Assembly (NCBI RefSeq): GCF_017571475.1
Contig: NZ_JAGETW010000003.1
Location: forward strand, 186,001-250,000
DNA from: Thiomicrorhabdus sp. 6S3-12
GTDB taxonomy: Bacteria > Pseudomonadota > Gammaproteobacteria > Thiomicrospirales > Thiomicrospiraceae
Direction of reading: 5' to 3'
DNA length: 64,000 bases
The position numbers were made by a program, and so were the translations under genes. Below, in pieces: positions 32,589 to 51,064 of this stretch; position 1 is the first letter of the stretch; every line of letters begins with the position of its first letter. A model generated the notes under the pieces. That model searched no databases and was not told the DNA's origin. It saw only the letters and a list, made by a program, of their open reading frames with translations.

Positions 32589-33434
32589 TTAGAAAGAAGC
32601 CGCCTGAATCTGCGGAAGTTCAGCAAACAGCTTGCGGTAAGATTTCAGCTCCATCTGTACGGCCGGCGTCTTCTCCATGCGGCCCTCTTCAAGGGTTACG
32701 AAAACACTGGCCAATCCCGGATAGCCGGTTTCTTCGGCAAATTCAGCCAGACTCCTTTCCGCCAGCATGACAAGGCCACAGCACTGTAATTGCTTTAACG
32801 CCTGAGTGGACGGCAGCGGTTTGATTCCACCCAGAAACGGCACAATTCCCTGATGACTTAACCAGAGTCCGCACAGAACCTGCGCCAACTGGGAGTCAAC
32901 TTTCGAGCTGGAGGCGACATAAACGTTTTGACAATGCCGATGGCCTTTAAGACTCTTAAGACGCTGTTGCGCAAAATACAGACGTGAATACAAACGGGGC
33001 AAGAGCGCACTCTCCCAGCAGATTCTGGCAGACACATCATGCAGATCCACATCCAACTCGCATAACACCTGCAGAGCGGACAGCTCGTCAAATTCAACAA
33101 ACAGCGAGTCGAGCGCGGTCTGCAAAGCGGCGTAATCACCACTCTGCGCGCTGGCTGCGAGCGTATTGGCGATAGAACGCAACTCATTCGGCGCTTCGGA
33201 AGCTTGCGGACTTTCCTGCAAGATCGCCTTGACCTGACTGATCGCAACCCCCTGCCGAGTCAGATCCACCGCACGCTTGAGGACCTCGATGTGCTCGTCG
33301 GTATAGAGTCGATGCCCGCTTTCAGTCCGTACCGGTTCCACCAAACCATAACGACGCTCCCAGGCTCGCAAGGTAATTGCATTTACGCCGGTCAGTCGCG
33401 AGACCTCGCGAATTGGATAAAGAGGTTGGTCCAT
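32589..33434 (-). CDS. MerR-family regulator, class II LitR/PplR type (cobalamin site lost)
   Basis: A 281-residue transcription regulator. Residues 1-75 form a MerR helix-turn-helix (YPIREVSRLTGVNAITLRAWERRYGLV...RLYTDEHIEVLKRA). The C-terminal part resembles the helical and Rossmann domains of CarH/LitR, but the ExHxxG cobalamin motif is replaced by SSSKVDSQL (about 175-183), so it should not bind adenosylcobalamin. In Pseudomonas, class II LitR proteins without B12 work with short LOV proteins. Here the neighbour is exactly such a LOV gene. It is the last gene after photolyase on the minus strand. Confidence 0.88.
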   Translation of the reverse strand: MDQPLYPIREVSRLTGVNAITLRAWERRYGLVEPVRTESGHRLYTDEHIEVLKRAVDLTRQGVAISQVKAILQESPQASEAPNELRSIANTLAASAQSGDYAALQTALDSLFVEFDELSALQVLCELDVDLHDVSARICWESALLPRLYSRLYFAQQRLKSLKGHRHCQNVYVASSSKVDSQLAQVLCGLWLSHQGIVPFLGGIKPLPSTQALKQLQCCGLVMLAERSLAEFAEETGYPGLASVFVTLEEGRMEKTPAVQMELKSYRKLFAELPQIQAASF

Positions 33435-33500: not shown

Positions 33501-34958
33501 TTAGGCACGCTTCCCGCTCCGTTTGAGTTCGTCGACCCTTAGCAGGTGTTGCGCCCTGCTGCGTTTTAAGTCGACAACCGGATACGGATAATGTTTGCCC
33601 AGGTTAATTCCCTTGAGCACACACTCCTGCGGATAGAGCCATGGCGCGTGAATCGCTTTGCTTGAAAGCATTCGCAACTCCGGCACCCATTTGCGGATGT
33701 AATCGCCTTGGGCATCAAACTTCTCGCTCTGGCGCAAAGGATTAAAAAGCCGGTAGTAAGGCGCCGCATCGACACCGCACCCTGCAACCCACTGCCAGCC
33801 CATGGCATTATTCGCCGGGTCGGCGTCCAGCAGCGTGTCTGCAAACCAGGCCTGTCCGAGACGCCAATTCGCATTGAGATCTTTTGTCAGCAGCGAAGCA
33901 ACCAGCATCCGCACACGGTTGTGCATATAGCCCGTCTCCCAAAGCTCGCGCATGCCGGCATCAATTATCGGAATTCCGGTGTGTCCGCTTTGCCATGCAC
34001 AGAGCGACTCGGCATCATTCTGCCAGGACATATCGGCAAACTTCTGCTGAAAAGGCTCGGTTTCCGTATTCGGGAAAAACCATAACAGCAGACGGGCAAA
34101 CTCGCGCCACAGAAGCTGTCTAAGCCACGGCTGGGCGTTTAGTTGCGGGTTCTCTTCCGCACAGGCAGTTAATTCGAAATAAATCGCCCGCGCGGAGATT
34201 TCTCCGAAATGCAGATAAGCAGAGAGTCGGCTGGTTGCATCCAATGCCGGAAAATCACGGTCATGATGGTAATCGATAATATTTTGCGTGATAAACCCTT
34301 GCAGCTGCCGCCACGCCGCATCCTCTCCGGGCTGCCAGTATTGCATCAGCTTTTGCGCCCAGGGCTGACACTGAATTTCCCGCAGACTCTGTGGCAATTC
34401 AAAGCGTTCACCGGGTAACTGCGGCCAGCGTAACTTAAGCCACTCTTTTTCCTGATTAACTGCACTCTCATCCAACGGCTGCAATGTCGGCAGTTTGTCC
34501 AGAACCGCTTTGTAGAACGGGGTAAAAACGACATAGGGATTGCCCTGTTTATTGACGACTTCGCCGGGCGTAAACCAGAATTCCGAGTGAAACGGCTGCA
34601 GAGCCACTTGGCGTTTTTTGCACAGTTGCAAAGCAAGATTCTGCATTTCCGTAAATGGCTGGCCGACCTGAACACTGTAGAAGACCTGCTGTGGTTCAAT
34701 CTCCTCCAAAGCCAACGCAAACTGCTGCGCAAAATCACCACTGTACAGCAAAAGCTCCGCTCCCTTCTGCCGTAGCGAGGCTTGCAGCCGAAGCAGGCTG
34801 TGCGCAAGCCAGGCACTATTGGCCTGGCCCAGTGCTCGTTGCGGGTCATGAAAATAGACCAGCGCTACTTTGTCGGCCTGCGCAACCGCAGTTTGCAAAG
34901 CGGGAAGATGACTTAAACGCAATTCACGCTGAAGCCACACCAATATCGTTTTCCCCAT
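33501..34958 (-). CDS. phrB: deoxyribodipyrimidine photolyase
   Basis: Light-driven repair of cyclobutane pyrimidine dimers using FADH- and an antenna cofactor. The 485-residue class I protein has the N-terminal antenna domain (VWLQRELRLSHLPALQ), DATSRLSAYLHFGEISARAI, LLWREFARLLLWFFPN, and the FAD region TGIPIIDAGMRELWETGYMHNRVRMLVASLLTKDL and DADPANNAMGWQWVAGCG. GAGGAGAG precedes the start. It is preceded by the cfa-type gene and followed by the LitR-type regulator, all on the minus strand. Confidence 0.96.
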   Translation of the reverse strand: MGKTILVWLQRELRLSHLPALQTAVAQADKVALVYFHDPQRALGQANSAWLAHSLLRLQASLRQKGAELLLYSGDFAQQFALALEEIEPQQVFYSVQVGQPFTEMQNLALQLCKKRQVALQPFHSEFWFTPGEVVNKQGNPYVVFTPFYKAVLDKLPTLQPLDESAVNQEKEWLKLRWPQLPGERFELPQSLREIQCQPWAQKLMQYWQPGEDAAWRQLQGFITQNIIDYHHDRDFPALDATSRLSAYLHFGEISARAIYFELTACAEENPQLNAQPWLRQLLWREFARLLLWFFPNTETEPFQQKFADMSWQNDAESLCAWQSGHTGIPIIDAGMRELWETGYMHNRVRMLVASLLTKDLNANWRLGQAWFADTLLDADPANNAMGWQWVAGCGVDAAPYYRLFNPLRQSEKFDAQGDYIRKWVPELRMLSSKAIHAPWLYPQECVLKGINLGKHYPYPVVDLKRSRAQHLLRVDELKRSGKRA

Positions 34959-35031: not shown

Positions 35032-36264
35032 TCAGGAATGCTCCAGCGTGAACTGGTAGACCGAAACCTGCCCACTTTCAAACCCGATTGTGCAGTAATC
35101 CAGATAGTAATTCCAGATCCGCTGAAACGCCTTGTCATATCCCATCTTCTCCAACTGGTCGCTATGGTGATTGAAGCGCTGTTTCCAGAGTTGGCAGGTG
35201 GTCGCGTAATCCGCACCGAAGTCGAGACGATTAACAATTTTAAAACCGTGTGCGTTGCTCAGAGCTTCAAGCTGTGCGACACTCGGCAACAAACCACCCG
35301 GGAAGATGTACGCTTGGATAAAATCTACCCCGGACTGATAACTTTCAGCTTGTTGATCGGCAATCGTAATCACCTGCAACAGCGCTTTGCCGTCTTTTTT
35401 AAGCCGCTGTTTCAGCATTGTAAAATAGCTGTCCCAGTAGGATTTTCCGACCGCTTCAAACATCTCAATCGAAACGACATGATCATACTGGCGGCTTTCG
35501 TGACGGTAGTCCTGCAAAACCACCTCGTAACGCTCGCGCGGAAATTCTTTGAGGCGCTGCAATGCATATTTTTGCTGTTCTGCCGATAACGTCAGCCCTG
35601 TGATGCTTGCCCCTCTTTCCAGGGCACACTGCATAAAGCCTCCCCAACCGCAACCAACCTCCAGGATATGCTCACCGCCGGCAATCCCGAGTTCATTCAG
35701 AATACGCTGGTTTTTGACCATTTGAGCCTGTTGCAGGGAGAAGGTATCGCCCTGGAAAATCCCGCTTGAATAGGTCATAGCCGAATCCAGCCAGAGCGCA
35801 TAAAAGTCATTTCCCAGATCGTAGTGATAGGAGACATTGCGGCGGCTGTTCGCCAGAGAATTGTGTCGTTTTCGGTGCTGCCACAAATGCCGCCAACGAC
35901 CAAACCGGTTGCTCAGCAGAGAATCAAATTGCTCGACATTAAGATGCGCCAGTTTCAGAAGGCGGTAAACAGAGGTTGTTTCAACGGCGCCCTCAAAATA
36001 AGCCTGAGCAAATCCCAAATCACCCTGCGTTTTGAGCAGCCAGTATGTCCGCAAAGGACGCACGACAATCAGTTCGGCATGCGGTCCAGGCTGACCGCCT
36101 TCATAACGACGGCTTCGGCGATCGTCGAAAGTCAGCGTCAGGCTACCGTATTTCAATCGATCGAAAGGCAGCTTCAACAGCATATACTGGATCCACGAAG
36201 GTGCAATGAAACGTTCGCAGACGCTACCCAATAAAGTTCGGCTGGTGGTGAAGTTTTTCAACAT
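35032..36264 (-). CDS. cfa: cyclopropane-fatty-acyl-phospholipid synthase family methyltransferase
   Basis: SAM-dependent enzyme acting on double bonds of membrane phospholipid acyl chains. The 410-residue protein has SYHYDLGNDFYALWLD, the SAM loop ILEVGCGWGGFMQCAL, ITGLTLSAEQ, and SIEMFEAVG. Paralogues in this family make cyclopropane, 10-methyl or furan fatty acids (UfaM). Clustering with a flavin oxidoreductase and a DUF1365 protein favours a specialised role in photo-oxidative stress, but this is inference. It overlaps the DUF1365 gene by 7 bases. Confidence 0.93.
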   Translation of the reverse strand: MLKNFTTSRTLLGSVCERFIAPSWIQYMLLKLPFDRLKYGSLTLTFDDRRSRRYEGGQPGPHAELIVVRPLRTYWLLKTQGDLGFAQAYFEGAVETTSVYRLLKLAHLNVEQFDSLLSNRFGRWRHLWQHRKRHNSLANSRRNVSYHYDLGNDFYALWLDSAMTYSSGIFQGDTFSLQQAQMVKNQRILNELGIAGGEHILEVGCGWGGFMQCALERGASITGLTLSAEQQKYALQRLKEFPRERYEVVLQDYRHESRQYDHVVSIEMFEAVGKSYWDSYFTMLKQRLKKDGKALLQVITIADQQAESYQSGVDFIQAYIFPGGLLPSVAQLEALSNAHGFKIVNRLDFGADYATTCQLWKQRFNHHSDQLEKMGYDKAFQRIWNYYLDYCTIGFESGQVSVYQFTLEHS

Positions 36265-37082
36265 AACTGCATCTCCGAGTGTGAGTATTTAACTTTTTTC
36301 AGTGCCTTAGGGGTGCGGTGAAATTTACCGCCCATAAACCAGATCTTTAAGGCCCACCAGTGAATCATGGTCAACACCTTGAGACTGTTAAAAGGCATCG
36401 CCAAAGCGGCTCTCAACAGCGACTGACGCGTCAGAGGCAAGGCGGTTGCCGCTTGAGTCGCCACCAGCATCGGCTGCTGCCGACAGCTCTGGTAGATACC
36501 CAAGTGAAAAGTATCTCCCGGCGCTTTAAGGCGAAAACGGTATTCGCAGTCCATATCGATAAACGGGGAAACGTGAAACGCTTTATCCGCTTTGGCCTGC
36601 ACCATAGTCGCCAGAGGCGATAAAGGTTCGCCGCGGTTACCCAGTACATAGTGGTGCCATTGACCGAAGGTATTGCTCACTTCGCCGACAATTGCGATCA
36701 GCCGGTTCTGCTCGTCATAGGCATACCACATCGCCAGCGGATTGAAGATAATTCCCAGAAAACGTGGCGAACAGACCAACTCAATGCGCTGCGGCGCATC
36801 TTCTATGCCGTATTCGGCCAAGAGGCTTTCCAGCCACGGACGCCACGGTTTTCCGTCGCGCGCGCCAAAATCCCTGTAATTCAGGCTGTAGAGGTTAAAA
36901 CGATTCAAAGAAAGAAATTTGCAGATGCCTTTGTGTGCACCTAGCTCTTCTTGAATCCGGTCTATCTCGACTCTCAGACTCATGACTTTGTACTGAAAGG
37001 CATAACGCACCGGAAACATCCTTTGATGCATCACCGAGCCAAAATAGACGGCCGATCCTTTCTCATATCCGGACGCATTCAT
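36258..37082 (-). CDS. DUF1365 family protein
   Basis: A 274-residue protein of the DUF1365 family (AVYFGSVMHQRMFPVRYAFQYKVMSLRVEID, LVCSPRFLGIIFNPLAMWYAYDEQ, GQWHHYVLG, KAFHVSPFIDMDCEYRFRL). ATG 37082 forms an ATGA overlap with the flavin oxidoreductase stop, so I prefer it to the longer open frame. The family almost always lies between a flavin amine-oxidase-like gene and a cfa-type gene, as here, and is linked to unusual fatty acid formation; its reaction is not firmly known to me. Confidence 0.9.
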   Translation of the reverse strand: MNASGYEKGSAVYFGSVMHQRMFPVRYAFQYKVMSLRVEIDRIQEELGAHKGICKFLSLNRFNLYSLNYRDFGARDGKPWRPWLESLLAEYGIEDAPQRIELVCSPRFLGIIFNPLAMWYAYDEQNRLIAIVGEVSNTFGQWHHYVLGNRGEPLSPLATMVQAKADKAFHVSPFIDMDCEYRFRLKAPGDTFHLGIYQSCRQQPMLVATQAATALPLTRQSLLRAALAMPFNSLKVLTMIHWWALKIWFMGGKFHRTPKALKKVKYSHSEMQLC

Positions 37083-38389
37083 ACTTCGGCTCTCCGATTT
37101 TCCCACGGCAGAGAAACATTCCACCTCCGCGCCAGATCCACGGCACTGCGCAAACCGTCTTCGTGAAATCCGTAACCGGTGTAGGCACCGACAAACCAGC
37201 AGTTCTCCACGCCCTGAAGTCCACTGAGCGATTTCTGAGCCTCCATCGCACCTTGATCAAAGACAGGGTGTTGATACTGAATGCACTCATAAGTCATACG
37301 CGCCTCCGGTTCCTGCAATGGATTCAGCGTCACCAGCAGCGGCGTTTTCAGAGGAATATTCTGAAGCTGGTTCATCCAGTAGGTGACCGCGACATGACGC
37401 TCTTCACTACAACTCTCACGCAGGTAATTCCAACTCGCCCAGGCCTTTTTACGTCTGGGCATCAGGCGTGGATCACTATGCAGATAAGCGGTGTTCTGCT
37501 GATAGTTAAAAGCCTGCATACAGGTGAAGGTCTGTTGCAAAGCGCTATCAAACAGCTGCCAGTTCTGATCCCCATGCGCAGCAAAGACCACATGATCGAA
37601 AAGCGCTTCGCCGTTTTCGGTGGTCACCTTCAAGCCGTCTGCGCTTTTAGCAACCCCGCGCACAGGATCGTAAGCGACGGAAAACTTCGCTTTATGCATC
37701 AGGGCGTCGATATAGTTTTGCGCGCCCCCTTTTACCGTCTCCCATTGAGGGCGATCCTGAATATTGAGCAGACCATGGTTTTCAAAAAAGCGCAGAAAAC
37801 TCTCCGCCGGAAAGGCCATCATTGTCTTTACCGGACACGACCAGATTGCAGCCGCCATTGGAAGCAAATAATAGTCGCGCATACGCTGGCTGAAATGATG
37901 CATGCGCAAATAGCTCTCAAGATTGAGCGTGTGAAGCTGGCCGTTGAACAGATCTTTTTTGGCTTGTCGGTTGAAGCGTAGAATCTCTGCCAACATTTTC
38001 CAGTGTGCGACCGAGAGCAGGTTCCTGCGTTGCGCAAAAAGCGTGTTGAGATTATTGCCCGAATACTCGATTCGCCCCTGATCAACCGATACTGAAAAAC
38101 TCATTTCGGTATTTTCAATCGGGACCTTGAGGTGCTTAAACATTGCATTCAAATGCGGGTAATTCGGGCGGTTATAAACGATAAAACCAGTATCGACCGG
38201 CTGCTCGACGCCTTCAAGCTGCACCGAACAGGTATTGGTATGCCCGCCCAGTCGGGTATTTTTCTCAAACAGCGTGACCCGATGCTTCTGTCCCAGAAAC
38301 CAGGCACTGGCCAAACCGCTGATCCCGCTGCCGATGACCGCAACACTTTGTCCGGGAGCAATACCGCTTCGCATAACCATTGATTTCAT
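37079..38389 (-). CDS. FAD-dependent oxidoreductase (amine-oxidase-like)
   Basis: A 436-residue flavoprotein. The N-terminal GSGISGLASAWFLGQKHRVTLFEKNTRLGGHTNT is an FAD-binding Rossmann motif, and GAYTGYGFHEDGLRSAVDLA closes the FAD site near the C-terminus. It resembles the cyclopropane/unsaturated fatty acid modifying flavoproteins found in rpoE-chrR and litR regulons. It is the first gene of the minus-strand operon with DUF1365, cfa, phrB and the regulator. Its start is preceded by GAAGGTG and by an array of TATACA sites. Confidence 0.92.
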   Translation of the reverse strand: MKSMVMRSGIAPGQSVAVIGSGISGLASAWFLGQKHRVTLFEKNTRLGGHTNTCSVQLEGVEQPVDTGFIVYNRPNYPHLNAMFKHLKVPIENTEMSFSVSVDQGRIEYSGNNLNTLFAQRRNLLSVAHWKMLAEILRFNRQAKKDLFNGQLHTLNLESYLRMHHFSQRMRDYYLLPMAAAIWSCPVKTMMAFPAESFLRFFENHGLLNIQDRPQWETVKGGAQNYIDALMHKAKFSVAYDPVRGVAKSADGLKVTTENGEALFDHVVFAAHGDQNWQLFDSALQQTFTCMQAFNYQQNTAYLHSDPRLMPRRKKAWASWNYLRESCSEERHVAVTYWMNQLQNIPLKTPLLVTLNPLQEPEARMTYECIQYQHPVFDQGAMEAQKSLSGLQGVENCWFVGAYTGYGFHEDGLRSAVDLARRWNVSLPWENRRAEV

Positions 38390-38404: not shown

Positions 38405-38465
38405 TATACAAACCCTTTCTTGAAGTTATACAAAAACCTTTACAAAAATTCAAATTTATTATACA
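38405..38465 (-). promoter_or_regulatory. candidate LitR-type operator half-array, leftward operon
   Basis: TATACA at 38405-38410, TATACA at 38427-38432, TTTACA at 38439-38444 and TATACA at 38460-38465 are direct repeats on the same strand, spaced 22, 12 and 21 bases, close to multiples of 11. CarH/LitR proteins bind direct TGTACA-like repeats about one helical turn apart. A minus-strand promoter TTTGAA-N18-TATAAC (about 38425-38454) lies inside the array, so a bound repressor would block the flavin oxidoreductase operon. Confidence 0.65.
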
Positions 38466-38530
38466 AATTAGTAAAAAAACAGGATGAGCCTTGTAAAAAC
38501 TCGCAAAATCATCCAGGAAAGCGTAATTTT

Positions 38531-38629
38531 TGTACAAATCCAAGAGACAGAGCGCCTGTCGGTAGCAACACTGTGCGAAGCGAGGCAAAAAGCTGTACAA
38601 GGCTGTACAAGGCTGTACAGCCTCATACA
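38531..38629 (+). promoter_or_regulatory. candidate LitR-type operator array, rightward operon
   Basis: TGTACA at 38531-38536, then TGTACA at 38594-38599, 38604-38609 and 38614-38619 and CATACA at 38624-38629. The last four are spaced exactly 10 bases, with the spacer AAGGC/AGCC, one per helical turn. They lie 60-95 bases before the SDR start at 38690. No equally dense TGTACA array was seen elsewhere in the window. Confidence 0.68.
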
Positions 38630-38689
38630 CCTTCTTCCCGACCTTTTCTTTTACGGGCCGGTTTACGGATTTACGTTTGAGGCAGTCAA

Positions 38690-39463
38690 ATGGAACAGAA
38701 GCAAAACAGCACGGTATGGATAGTCGGCGCTTCGCAAGGCATCGGCCTGGCCTTAAGCCGTCAATTACTGCAAAACGGTTTTACAGTGGTTGCCTCTTCC
38801 AGAAAAGCGACCCGGTCTTCAGAGCTTGTTCAGCTCCAACAGCAGTTCAACTCAGGAAAGCTGCATCTTCTCGACTGTGATGTCAGCGAAGAAAACTTAC
38901 AAAGCTACTGTCAGCAGGCCTGGGAACTGGCCGAAGGTCTCGACTACTGGTTTTACAATGTCGGCGTCTACCAACCGATGAGCGTTTCCGAATGGGACTG
39001 GAACAGTTTTAATTTAATGAATCAGAGCAACTATCTTGGCGCAGTCAAACTGATGATTGCGCTGCAACGACTTCAGGCTCAACACGATAAACCGATGCAC
39101 TGGATATGGAATATCAGTCTGGCCGCCGATTTTGGCCTGCCATACGGTGGAGGTTATTCAGCCCCCAAAGCGGCTCTGCTGAATCTTGCAGAATCGATCG
39201 CGCCGGAATTGGCTCGCCAGCGGATTAAACTTCAAGTGATTAACCACGGCTTCGTCAAAACCCGTTTGACCGCAAAAAATCGTTTCCCCATGCCCGGACT
39301 GATGGAACCCGACGAAGCGGCACGCAAAATCGTTCCATTGTTCGGGCAGAACCGTTTTGAACTGCGTTTTCCCTGGACCTTGTCGATCATTCTGGGAACG
39401 TTGAAACGCCTGCCGAAAAGCTGGAGTCTGTATATAAGTAAAAGGATGTTGAAGGATGACTGA
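38690..39463 (+). CDS. short-chain dehydrogenase/reductase
   Basis: A 257-residue SDR with the cofactor motif VGASQGIGLALSRQLL, an NVG motif in FYNVGVY, and the catalytic YSAPKAA (YxxxK). A C-terminal hydrophobic stretch (FPWTLSIILGTLKRLPKSW) may touch the membrane. It is the first gene right of the operator array, overlapping the NTF2-like gene by 8 bases. SDRs of this kind belong to the same photo-oxidative gene set in Pseudomonas and Rhodobacter; the substrate is unknown. Confidence 0.9.
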   Translation: MEQKQNSTVWIVGASQGIGLALSRQLLQNGFTVVASSRKATRSSELVQLQQQFNSGKLHLLDCDVSEENLQSYCQQAWELAEGLDYWFYNVGVYQPMSVSEWDWNSFNLMNQSNYLGAVKLMIALQRLQAQHDKPMHWIWNISLAADFGLPYGGGYSAPKAALLNLAESIAPELARQRIKLQVINHGFVKTRLTAKNRFPMPGLMEPDEAARKIVPLFGQNRFELRFPWTLSIILGTLKRLPKSWSLYISKRMLKDD

Positions 39464-39914
39464 CCCGACGAGCGAGTGGCTGGCCGCTTATGCGCACGCT
39501 TACGAAAACCTCGAGCTAAACACGCTTCACAGCGGTTTGGGCTCGCTTCTCAACGAACAGATCTATTTTGAGGATCCGTTTAACCGCATTCACGGCAAAG
39601 CCGAAACCCTTCGTCTTTTCGAGCATATGTTCGCGACACTTCAGGAACCGAAATTTACCGTTCTCGATATAGCCGTCGGACAGAACGGCAACGGCTATCT
39701 TTACTGGCACTTCGACTTCCTGTTCCGACAAAAAAAACAACAGTTCGACGGCATGAGCAAAGTCCTCTTCGACTCCGAAGGCCAAGTCCGCTCACATATT
39801 GACTACTGGGATCCGGCCAAACACCTGTACAGCCAGTTCCCGATACTGGGATCGCTTCTGCGCCTTGTCGAACAGCGACTCGCCCTCCCGCAAAAGCGCC
39901 AAGCCCGCGCTTGA
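39456..39914 (+). CDS. NTF2/SnoaL-like fold protein
   Basis: A 152-residue protein with the NTF2-like cone fold pattern: YENLELNTLHSGLGSLLNEQIYFEDPFNRIHGK, MFATLQEPKFTVLDI, and YLYWHFDFLFR with SKVLFDSEGQVRSHIDYWDPAKHLY. It overlaps the SDR and accompanies it in light-regulated clusters. No catalytic role can be assigned. Confidence 0.85.
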   Translation: MTDPTSEWLAAYAHAYENLELNTLHSGLGSLLNEQIYFEDPFNRIHGKAETLRLFEHMFATLQEPKFTVLDIAVGQNGNGYLYWHFDFLFRQKKQQFDGMSKVLFDSEGQVRSHIDYWDPAKHLYSQFPILGSLLRLVEQRLALPQKRQARA

Positions 39915-40009
39915 ACAAACTACACGGAAAAAGCCTCACGCTGCCTGCATTGGCATTAAAGCGCCTAAAGGCGCATAATGACCGAATACATAAAGATAAG
40001 GAATCCCAG

Positions 40010-40549
40010 ATGTCTCGTTTAACACGGCTGTTTGTCTTCCTGCCTTTTATGACGCTGCTGTTCTCACCTCCCGCGGCAGCGGAACTTAAAACCGGGGATA
40101 TGGCGCCGAAGTTTGCGCTGTTTGACCAGCATCAGCAATCGGTTTCTCTGCAACAGCAGAGCGGGAACTGGGTCGTACTGTATTTCTATCCGAAAAACGA
40201 CACGCCCGGCTGCACTACCGAAGCCTGCAGTTTTCGAGACAATATCAATCGGCTGATTGCCCAGCAGGCGGTTATCCTCGGGGTCAGCGTCGACTCGGTC
40301 AGCAGTCATCGGAAGTTTGCCGAAAAATATAACCTGCCGTTCAGTCTGCTTGCCGATAAAGACGCCGTGGTTGCTGAAAAGTATGATGCGGTTTTGAATT
40401 TGGGTATTGTGAAATTCGCCAAACGCCACAGTTTTATTATCGACCCTCAGGGTCGAATCGCTCGGATCTACCGGAATGTGGATCCGCAGAAACATGTGGC
40501 GCAGATTCTTAAAGATCTGCAACAGCTGCAAAGACAAGAGGGAAAATAG
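40010..40549 (+). CDS. exported peroxiredoxin (Bcp/PrxQ type)
   Basis: Thiol peroxidase of 179 residues. ATG 40010, preceded by ATAAGGAATCCC, gives a Sec signal peptide (MSRLTRLFVFLPFMTLLFSPPAAA), so the enzyme should be periplasmic. The peroxidatic cysteine is in PKNDTPGCTTEACSFRD, with the second cysteine five residues later as in PrxQ/Bcp. It follows the SDR-NTF2 pair after 95 bases that contain the hairpin GCGCCTAAAGGCGC, and is followed directly by msrA, so oxidative damage repair is the theme. Confidence 0.92.
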   Translation: MSRLTRLFVFLPFMTLLFSPPAAAELKTGDMAPKFALFDQHQQSVSLQQQSGNWVVLYFYPKNDTPGCTTEACSFRDNINRLIAQQAVILGVSVDSVSSHRKFAEKYNLPFSLLADKDAVVAEKYDAVLNLGIVKFAKRHSFIIDPQGRIARIYRNVDPQKHVAQILKDLQQLQRQEGK

Positions 40550-41101
40550 ATGAACGACACTCAGAACAAAGCTTCGATCGTTTTCGGAATGGGATGTTTC
40601 TGGGGTGCGGAAAAGCGCATGAGCGAAATCCCCGGCGTACTTGATGTCGAATCCGGTTATGCCGGAGGAGACAGCACCCTGACTTCTTATCAGGAGGTTC
40701 TGACGCTGGAAAAAGCCATACATATCGGAATGACCGACGAGCGCAACCACGCAGAAGTCATCAAGGTCACCTATGATCCTCAACAGGTTGATTTAGAGAC
40801 ATTAATGATCCACTTCTGGCAGAATCACGATCCAACTCAGGGCGACCGTCAGGGAAATGATGTCGGCAGCAATTACCGCAGTGTCATCTACTATCGACAG
40901 GAAGACGAGAAACTCTTAGCAGAAAAAACCAGAGATCGTTATCAGCAGGCGTTAACCCAAAGAGGCTACGGTGAAATCACGACTGAAATCGCGCCTTTGA
41001 AAAACTACAATCGCGCCGAAGAGTACCATCAGGATTACCTGCAGAAAAACCCGCACGGCTATTGCGGACTGGGTGGAACCGGAGTGCCCTACCCGGACTA
41101 A
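40550..41101 (+). CDS. msrA: peptide-methionine (S)-S-oxide reductase
   Basis: Reduces methionine-S-sulfoxide in proteins. The 183-residue protein has the catalytic GMGCFWGAE, ESGYAGGD, FWQNHDPTQGDRQGNDVGSNYRS and EEYHQDYLQKNPHGYCG motifs; the last supplies a recycling cysteine. No signal peptide, so cytoplasmic. The start codon directly follows the peroxiredoxin stop. No msrB is in the window. Confidence 0.96.
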   Translation: MNDTQNKASIVFGMGCFWGAEKRMSEIPGVLDVESGYAGGDSTLTSYQEVLTLEKAIHIGMTDERNHAEVIKVTYDPQQVDLETLMIHFWQNHDPTQGDRQGNDVGSNYRSVIYYRQEDEKLLAEKTRDRYQQALTQRGYGEITTEIAPLKNYNRAEEYHQDYLQKNPHGYCGLGGTGVPYPD

Positions 41102-49831: not shown

Positions 49832-49945
49832 TCGCCCAGAATTCAACACCCACGCAACAGTAATTGCCGAAAATACTCAACGCTGGCGGTTGTTGTTTTA
49901 TACAAAAGCTATACAATCATTACTGTCCCAATTATGGAGAAAGTA

Positions 49946-51064
49946 ATGCATTATCACGGACGAGCTCAATTTCAGCATGGCGAAACCAGCGCCACCGGAA
50001 TATTAATCACCAACCTCGGTACTCCTGACGCACCAACCAAAGAAGCGTTAAGGCCTTACCTAAAAGAATTTCTAGAAGATCCTCGCGTTGTTGAGCCGCC
50101 TCCGGCCCGTTGGCTGTGGAAGCTGATTTTAAACGGCATCATTCTTAATACCCGCCCGGCAAAATCAGCGGAAGCCTATGCCAGCATCTGGGATTCAGAA
50201 GGTCCCGGCGCACCTCTGCTAAACATCACGCAGCGCCAGCTCGAAGGCATTAAGAAATCCGTTGAACCGCATTTCCAGGGCCGTGTGGAGTTTGCTCTGG
50301 CAATGCGCTACGGAAACCCTTCGATCGCCAGCGCTTTGCGAGAACTGCATGAAAAAGGCTGTCAGCGCATCGTCGTCTTGCCTCTATATCCGCAATATGC
50401 AGCGGCCACCACCGCCTCTACCTTTGATGCCGTGACGGCAGAATTGCAGACTTGGCGCTGGATTCCGGAACTGCGCTTTATTAACCACTACCATCGTCAC
50501 CCCGGTTATATCAAAGCGTTGGCTAACAGCATTCGGGAACATCAGGCGGAACATGGTAAGCCGCAATTGCTGGTGATGTCTTATCATGGCGTCCCTCAGC
50601 GCTACCTCGATAATGGCGATCCTTACCATTGCGAATGCCATGTAACTTCGCGTCTGGTGGCGGAAGAACTTGGTTTAAGCAAAGATGAATATAAGGTCAC
50701 TTTCCAGTCTCTTTTCGGTAAAGAAGAGTGGATTAAGCCATATACAGATGCAACCTTGAAGTCTTTGCCATCTCAAGGAATCAAGGATATTCAGGTGATC
50801 TGCCCGGGATTCTCGGCCGACTGCCTGGAAACCATTGAAGAGATCGACGAGGAAAACCGCGAATATTTCGAAGAAGCCGGCGGCGAGAAATTCAGTTACA
50901 TTAAATGCCTTAACGATCGCGAAGATCATACCGAGATGCTGGCAGAGCTTATTTTACAGCACACTCAAGGCTGGTATGAGCGCGACCAGTTCGATTCGCA
51001 GCAGGACTCTGCCGAAAGAGATCGCGTGAAAGAGAACGCCAACGCAATGGGCTGCCCTTTTTAA
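49946..51064 (+). CDS. hemH: ferrochelatase
   Basis: Inserts Fe(II) into protoporphyrin IX, the last step of heme synthesis. The protein is about 372 residues, with ILITNLGTPDAPT, FLEDPRVVE, YASIWDSEGPGAPLL, YPQYAAATTAS, the metal-site SYHGVPQRYLDNGDPYHCEC, TFQSLFGKEEWIKPYT and CPGFSADCLETIEEI. I prefer ATG 49946, which has GGAG seven bases upstream, over the ATG at 49934 that overlaps this site. Confidence 0.96.
   Translation: MHYHGRAQFQHGETSATGILITNLGTPDAPTKEALRPYLKEFLEDPRVVEPPPARWLWKLILNGIILNTRPAKSAEAYASIWDSEGPGAPLLNITQRQLEGIKKSVEPHFQGRVEFALAMRYGNPSIASALRELHEKGCQRIVVLPLYPQYAAATTASTFDAVTAELQTWRWIPELRFINHYHRHPGYIKALANSIREHQAEHGKPQLLVMSYHGVPQRYLDNGDPYHCECHVTSRLVAEELGLSKDEYKVTFQSLFGKEEWIKPYTDATLKSLPSQGIKDIQVICPGFSADCLETIEEIDEENREYFEEAGGEKFSYIKCLNDREDHTEMLAELILQHTQGWYERDQFDSQQDSAERDRVKENANAMGCPF

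Follow-up and report, generated by a model that had tools for sequence, protein, structure and literature searches.

Phased TRTACA repeats as probable operators of a LOV-linked, CarH-like regulator in Thiomicrorhabdus and its relatives

CarH operators, in the available part of PMC9304148, are tandem 11-bp repeats of the form nnnnTnnACAn. For class II LitR proteins, the available part of PMC9758184 gives the site T(G/A)TACA-N12-TGTA(C/T)A (the PplR1 consensus, as cited there), and reports that PmlR2 of Pseudomonas mendocina represses in vitro, that lit LOV protein inhibits its DNA binding, and that photolyase, UfaM, folM and folE are light-induced in that species. The locus described here is like the CarH operators of Thermus, Bacillus and myxobacteria, which are 11-bp TnnACA direct repeats, some of them imperfect, overlapping a -35 or -10 element, and its regulator has the same fold; unlike CarH, which senses light by B12, the regulator here lacks the B12 histidine, and a LOV protein is the probable light sensor (PMC9304148, in part).

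The window, that is, the whole stretch of 64,000 nucleotides that was analysed, comes from the 2.55-Mb genome of Thiomicrorhabdus sp. 6S3-12 and holds two divergent operons (Table). The leftward one runs from an FAD oxidoreductase through DUF1365, a cyclopropane-fatty-acid-synthase-like methyltransferase and a photolyase to a MerR regulator, which a short LOV gene faces. A short LOV gene near a CarH-like MerR gene without a B12 site is also the arrangement of PmlR2/PmSB-LOV in P. mendocina and of PplR1-3/PpSB-LOV in P. putida, and in Pseudomonas such a regulator likewise stands over photolyase, SDR, FAD oxidoreductase and UfaM-like genes and is associated with TRTACA hexamers; P. mendocina, however, carries LOV-pmlR2 and the photolyase/pmlR1 cluster at two loci, whereas here there is one (PMC9758184, in the part available). 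VCA0056 of Vibrio cholerae is similar in that this MerR-like gene shares an operon with phr and is needed for part of the blue-light response, but it acts beside ChrR/sigma-E, and the accessible portion of that account describes neither a LOV partner nor an operator for it (PMC5241685).

Table. Genes, predicted promoter and predicted operators at the locus and at hemH (positions in the window).
Feature	Position	Strand	Remarks
Short LOV blue-light photoreceptor (presumed), 155 aa	32098..32565	+	DCRFLQ, taken as the cysteine motif
MerR-type regulator, CarH-like fold, class II LitR type	32589..33434	-	without the histidine of the CarH ERHEIG stretch
DNA photolyase	33501..34958	-	
Cyclopropane-fatty-acid-synthase-like methyltransferase	35032..36264	-	cluster position recalls UfaM of Pseudomonas (PMC9758184, in part)
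DUF1365 protein	36258..37124	-	
FAD-dependent amine oxidase-like oxidoreductase	37079..38389	-	first gene of the leftward operon
Left operator (predicted)	38405..38465	+	TATACA 38405, 38427, 38460 and TTTACA 38439; over the predicted leftward promoter
Predicted promoter of the leftward operon	38425..38453	-	-35 TTGAAT 38448-38453, 17-bp spacer, -10 TATAAC 38425-38430; by eye
Single TGTACA	38531..38536	.	no matching repeat in the aligned sister genome
Right array	38594..38629	+	TGTACA 38594, 38604, 38614 and CATACA 38624; each step 10 bp; in front of the SDR gene
Short-chain dehydrogenase (SDR)	38690..39463	+	first gene of the rightward operon
SnoaL-like protein, peroxiredoxin, MsrA	39456..41101	+	probable continuation of the rightward operon
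Second predicted operator, TATACA-N5-TATACA (11 bp)	49899..49915	+	over the hemH promoter TTGTTG 49890, N16, TACAAT 49912; by eye
hemH, ferrochelatase	49934..51064	+	TIGR00109, above cut-off

The regulator is homologous to Thermus CarH over residues 5-225 (phmmer E 1.4e-12), with an identical GHRLY stretch and a serine in place of the histidine of ERHEIG, a residue that I take to be the B12 ligand of CarH. Pfam recognised only its MerR domain. A monomer AlphaFold model built from 33 family sequences (mean pLDDT 87.4, pTM 0.69) returned full-length Thermus CarH as all of its top 12 Foldseek matches (E 7.6e-12 to 1.7e-9), with whole-chain TM scores of 0.41-0.48 that are low probably because the domains are placed differently. 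A MerR helix-turn-helix followed by a CarH-like helical domain with serine at the B12 histidine position, combined with a nearby gene for a short LOV protein, characterises class II LitR; of class I LitR, the B12-dependent CarH type, neither the cobalamin-binding histidine nor a B12 domain was found, and the regulator seems, from its residues, not to bind B12. The facing gene presumably encodes a short LOV protein, with DCRFLQ as the LOV cysteine motif, and the best solved relatives of its product are 'sensory box' proteins. The regulator is present in 38 of 62 family genomes (weakest E 1.4e-28) and the LOV protein (E <= 1e-40) in 37, all of which also have the regulator; the two genes are adjacent and syntenic across relatives. 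One genome (G046, locus L059) has the regulator and the photolyase but yielded no LOV gene at the E <= 1e-40 threshold, and exact 11-bp TRTACA pairs are absent from it altogether.

An earlier note on this DNA named nine hexamers in the divergent gap, and all nine are there on the plus strand. It called them direct repeats on one strand, a description that stands for TATACA, TTTACA and CATACA and fails for TGTACA, which is its own reverse complement and thus carries no information on strand. Seven plus-strand TRTACA stand in the 300-bp gap. Over 20,000 shuffles that preserve dinucleotides the mean was 0.12, and no shuffle reached seven or contained the TGTACA triple at 10-bp steps; chance clustering was set aside on this ground. 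The gap repeats form the densest 220-bp stretch of TRTACA within the window; the best stretch of the minus strand, with four matches, consists of the four palindromic TGTACA of the gap, seen from the opposite strand.

The spacing of the left members, which the earlier note did not give, is close to multiples of the helical turn (offsets 0, 22, 34 and 55). There is no exact 11-bp TRTACA pair among them, the steps being 22, 12 (to TTTACA) and 21, so that the 11-bp step of CarH appears as multiples (22, 33 and 55) with TTTACA one base off. The last four hexamers of the gap are exactly 10 bp apart, as first described, and no 11-bp step occurs in that right array; in both respects, 22/12/21 on the left and 10-bp steps on the right, the window departs from the CarH operators of PMC9304148 (available part). 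Of the left repeats, the copy at 38427 lies over the -10 of the predicted leftward promoter, that at 38439 over its spacer and that at 38460 over the flank upstream of its -35; the remaining TATACA, at 38405, lies downstream of the promoter, just before the ribosome-binding site. A strict sigma-70 scan of the gap returned no match, the leftward promoter escaping it for lack of a final T in the -10, and no promoter could be placed for the SDR gene. Control of both operons from one region, also proposed earlier, is plausible in relatives with gaps of 110-160 bp; in the window, 128 bp separate the left cluster from the right one, and each may act on its own.

Across 38 loci (the window's own and 37 others), 32 have both genes flanking the gap, and every one of these 32 syntenic gaps contains at least two TRTACA. 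A same-strand pair at 11, 21-23 or 32-34 bp is found in 29 and a pair at exactly 11 bp in 21, against one gap with a pair at 13-19 or 25-30 bp. In the three unphased gaps, TATACA copies lie 46 bp apart, and by eye an imperfect copy, TGTACG, follows the first at 11 bp. Orientation is conserved as well, since non-palindromic hexamers number 67 on the SDR strand and 11 on the other over the 32 gaps. Most of the gap is variable, and the block 38425-38470 is nearly invariant in five genomes (the window's and those of four congeners, G051, G041, G029 and G031). The proposal that the repeats are conserved with the gene cluster is thus borne out on the left, where 29 of 32 gaps are phased, and not on the right, where conservation extends to the sister genome (G051) only. 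Three of these genomes (G041, G029 and G031; loci L052, L053 and L054), which have no right array, show by eye an inverted repeat, ATCCAA..TTGGAT, on the SDR side, possibly the site of another regulator.

Counted over the 37 family loci, which are mutually related, and with TGTACA scored in both orientations, direct TRTACA pairs number 47 at 11 bp, 20 at 21-23 bp and 23 at 32-34 bp, against 1 at 10 bp, 4 at 12 bp and 1 at 13-18 bp. The conserved geometry is therefore 11 bp and its multiples, which is the published CarH spacing. Outside the family, an alignment-based scan of named genomes kept 80 of 297 confirmed loci, and the 61 that remain after exclusion of 19 own-family loci (Pseudomonas and others) hold 14 direct pairs at 11 bp, 12 at 19-21 bp and 6 at 28 bp; 11 bp is thus the commonest single distance there too, in a mixed picture. 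The same genomes scanned with a single regulator as query gave no loci. In one further assembly (G034, 83% complete), phased repeats stand beside the oxidoreductase gene and no regulator was found. Two genomes whose only MerR match is remote (E about 1e-7) have TGTACA pairs, 20 bp apart upstream of the oxidoreductase homologue in one (G001, L360) and 27 bp apart near the gene adjoining that homologue in the other (G002, L359), perhaps for a diverged regulator with another spacing.

The 11-bp pairs follow the regulator genome-wide. TRTACA-N5-TRTACA occurs 143 times in the 38 regulator genomes, against 12 matches of the reversed pattern used as control, and 12 times against 8 in the 24 genomes without the regulator. 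The window's own genome has a single exact pair, at 49899-49915 just upstream of hemH, where, with the promoter assigned by eye, 11-bp TnnACA direct repeats lie over promoter elements as in a CarH operator; its 17-mer is identical in G029, G031, G041 and G051. Since hemH was found in 58 of the 62 genomes, it offers a fair test of dependence on the regulator: an 11-bp pair lies within 300 bp upstream of hemH in 24 of 38 regulator genomes and in none of 20 without it (43 and 20 genes; Fisher p 8e-7, uncorrected for relatedness), the pair being absent at hemH in the other 14 regulator genomes. The earlier assignment of the gap to a LitR/CarH-type operator region linked to LOV is supported by its position between divergent operons, the CarH fold of the regulator and the way 11-bp pairs track that regulator over 62 genomes. 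The looser pattern TATACA-N4..30-TRTACA gave 11 matches in the window's genome and 12 in its sister, against 3 controls in each. Apart from the gap and hemH, the matches in the window's genome occupy seven further places, one with two overlapping matches; by simple gene calls, four are inside genes and three intergenic or at a gene end (L198/L199, L200 and L211), and by eye none of the seven has a clearly light-related neighbour.

To outline a predicted regulon, I started from 142 distinct 11-bp pairs, a few of them from genomes without the regulator. Leaving aside the 18 inside open frames, I took all proteins starting within 250 bp of a pair on either side, so that divergent pairs count two genes. 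The clusters so obtained are SDR (23), oxidoreductase (22), hemH (21), RudS type (13), OvoA type (12), PAS/MCP (11), photolyase (8), TIGR01777 (7), peroxiredoxin (6) and merR (3). For six of these clusters one representative each was checked: the RudS type is a TudS-like desulfurase with DUF1722, the OvoA type is OvoA (TIGR04344, above cut-off), the PAS/MCP, photolyase and TIGR01777 representatives match their labels, and the peroxiredoxin is AhpC/TSA. RudS in light-responsive operons with LitR is already on record (PMC11417400, in part). The ovoA-type genes adjoin 11-bp pairs at L134, where the product is the TIGR04344 protein of ovothiol synthesis, and at 11 further loci, and ovothiol synthesis is predicted from these sites to be under blue-light control. 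Single cases beside 11-bp pairs include FolM (above cut-off), a photolyase-related protein and a bacteriorhodopsin-like protein, the last encoded 60 bp from its pair (L175:1237-1998, G053). Many pairs have neighbours without an evident link to light, and a gene adjoining a pair need not be that pair's target.

Very probably, then, the gap is a genuine operator region that resembles CarH operators and the control exerted by class II LitR. More specifically, I consider it likely (probability about 0.8) that its repeats serve a class II LitR repressor antagonised by LOV, namely the product of 32589-33434, as operators that are CarH-like on the left and a 10-bp variant on the right, in front of photoprotection genes. 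The analysis established sequence, anatomy, synteny, phase, dependence on regulator presence and fold, and the regulator is taken from these to be the protein that would bind the predicted sites; that it would act as a repressor, with LOV as its antagonist, is proposed by analogy with the P. mendocina homologues, for which both are reported (PMC9758184, in part). In the dark, an oligomer of the regulator, possibly bound cooperatively as first proposed, would occupy a single face of the helix on TnnACA direct repeats about one helical turn apart (11 bp or multiples). On the left, the promoter of the oxidoreductase/UfaM-like/photolyase/merR operon would be covered at its -10, across the spacer and in the flank on the upstream side of the -35, and on the right a tight 10-bp version would stand before the SDR-SnoaL-peroxiredoxin-MsrA operon. 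Blue light would activate the adjacent short LOV protein, which would remove the repressor from the DNA, and both operons and hemH would be induced together with regulator synthesis.

For the right array there is another explanation. The emphasis that the earlier note placed on 10-bp spacing did not survive comparison: a pair at exactly 10 bp is found in 2 of the 32 syntenic gaps (the window and G051), and TRTACA-N4-TRTACA is not enriched in the 38 regulator genomes (20 against 31 controls; 10 against 5 in the 24 genomes without the regulator). Such figures are what one would expect if the TGTACA triple had arisen from an old half-working site by tandem duplication and had no function of its own, leaving only the left, 11-bp-phased cluster as operator, and the near identity of the window's units as 10-mers, like their number (three TGTACA copies in the window, two units in G051, none in the other 30 gaps), speaks for the same history. 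Against it, the aligned stretch of G051 reads TATACA-N4-TGTACA, its units differing in sequence yet holding the 10-bp step, and the block has been kept better than the 20 bp before it: between the two genomes, identity is 0.25 in those 20 bp, rises to 0.80 in 38600-38619 and is 0.70 in the 20 bp that follow, and 38640-38659 has no counterpart in G051. Moreover, the RudS/hemH sites of G010 and G015 combine an 11-bp step with subsequent 10-bp steps, and at an MCP gene of G005 the two spacings likewise stand side by side. Since G051 keeps two units in the 10-bp step, two units are probably older than the split of the two genomes; the third TGTACA is either new in the window or lost from G051. Functionless duplication strikes me as unlikely, if a serious doubt. 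With two units conserved in G051, no 10-bp pair in the other 30 gaps and no SDR promoter placed, the right array is a likely but unproven spacing variant of the operator, and it would be bound in the same way as the left cluster.

Alternatively, a symmetric dimer of the regulator might recognise TRTACA-N12-TGTAYA palindromes, in the manner described for PplR1 and PmlR2, with the direct repeats as by-products. Footprint and mutated-site data from P. mendocina support this arrangement there (PMC9758184, in part), and N12 pairs do occur in a few Pseudomonas loci, where the published sites are pairs 18 bp apart. Here, the earlier note was right that the spacing is unlike the N12 pair of PplR1: the steps in the gap are 10, 12, 21 and 22 bp, no pair lies at 18 bp, and the predicted sites are direct repeats phased by 11 bp and a tandem at 10 bp. 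At 18 bp, the 37 family loci hold 0 convergent TRTACA..TGTAYA pairs, against their 47 direct pairs at 11 bp, and the 61 outside loci hold 3, against 14. On these counts the palindromic arrangement was set aside as quite improbable for this family, and phased direct repeats are preferred.

A third proposal is that the right array works as RNA, either as a hairpin in the SDR leader or as an intrinsic terminator on the minus strand. A terminator-like stem can indeed be drawn on that strand (38629-38594), and the window's SDR leader folds better than its shuffles (z -3.3); any TGTACA array can fold, however, because its unit is palindromic, and the aligned leader of G051 has no such fold (z +0.7) although it keeps TRTACA-N4-TGTACA. 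As the fold is not conserved in G051, I set this reading aside with only a slight chance left to it, and retain the array as a DNA operator. Least credible of all is that the hexamers are ordinary AT-rich promoter pieces with no regulator, TATACA being close to a -10 box and several copies coinciding by eye with -10 boxes (e.g. TATACAAT at hemH), for this would account neither for the 11-bp phase with so few pairs at other spacings, nor for the dependence of hexamer pairs on regulator presence, nor for their one-strand orientation.

Among the titles and abstract beginnings of one library on class II LitR operators and on this genus, 11-bp repeats were nowhere described for a LOV-linked LitR; the 11-bp code for such a regulator, the family regulon and the 10-bp variant are thus apparently new. 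A broader proposition, to which I give even odds, is that B12-free, LOV-controlled LitR repressors generally use the 11-bp direct-repeat code of CarH, from Thiomicrorhabdus to Pseudomonas, with the N12 palindrome as a special case; that this family of sulfur oxidisers has a blue-light regulon including OvoA, ferrochelatase, RudS-type tRNA s4U removal and, in one genome, a rhodopsin; and that the lineage of the window has shifted its SDR promoter to a 10-bp register, as a natural spacing variant of a direct-repeat operator. If this is true, CarH with B12 and class II LitR with LOV would read the same direct-repeat code despite their different light sensors, and the operators of LOV-controlled repressors would be predictable from sequence. 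The 10-bp array would then serve as a natural test of the spacing that the oligomer tolerates, and sulfur-oxidising bacteria would have a testable light regulon, of which ovothiol synthesis is a predicted member.
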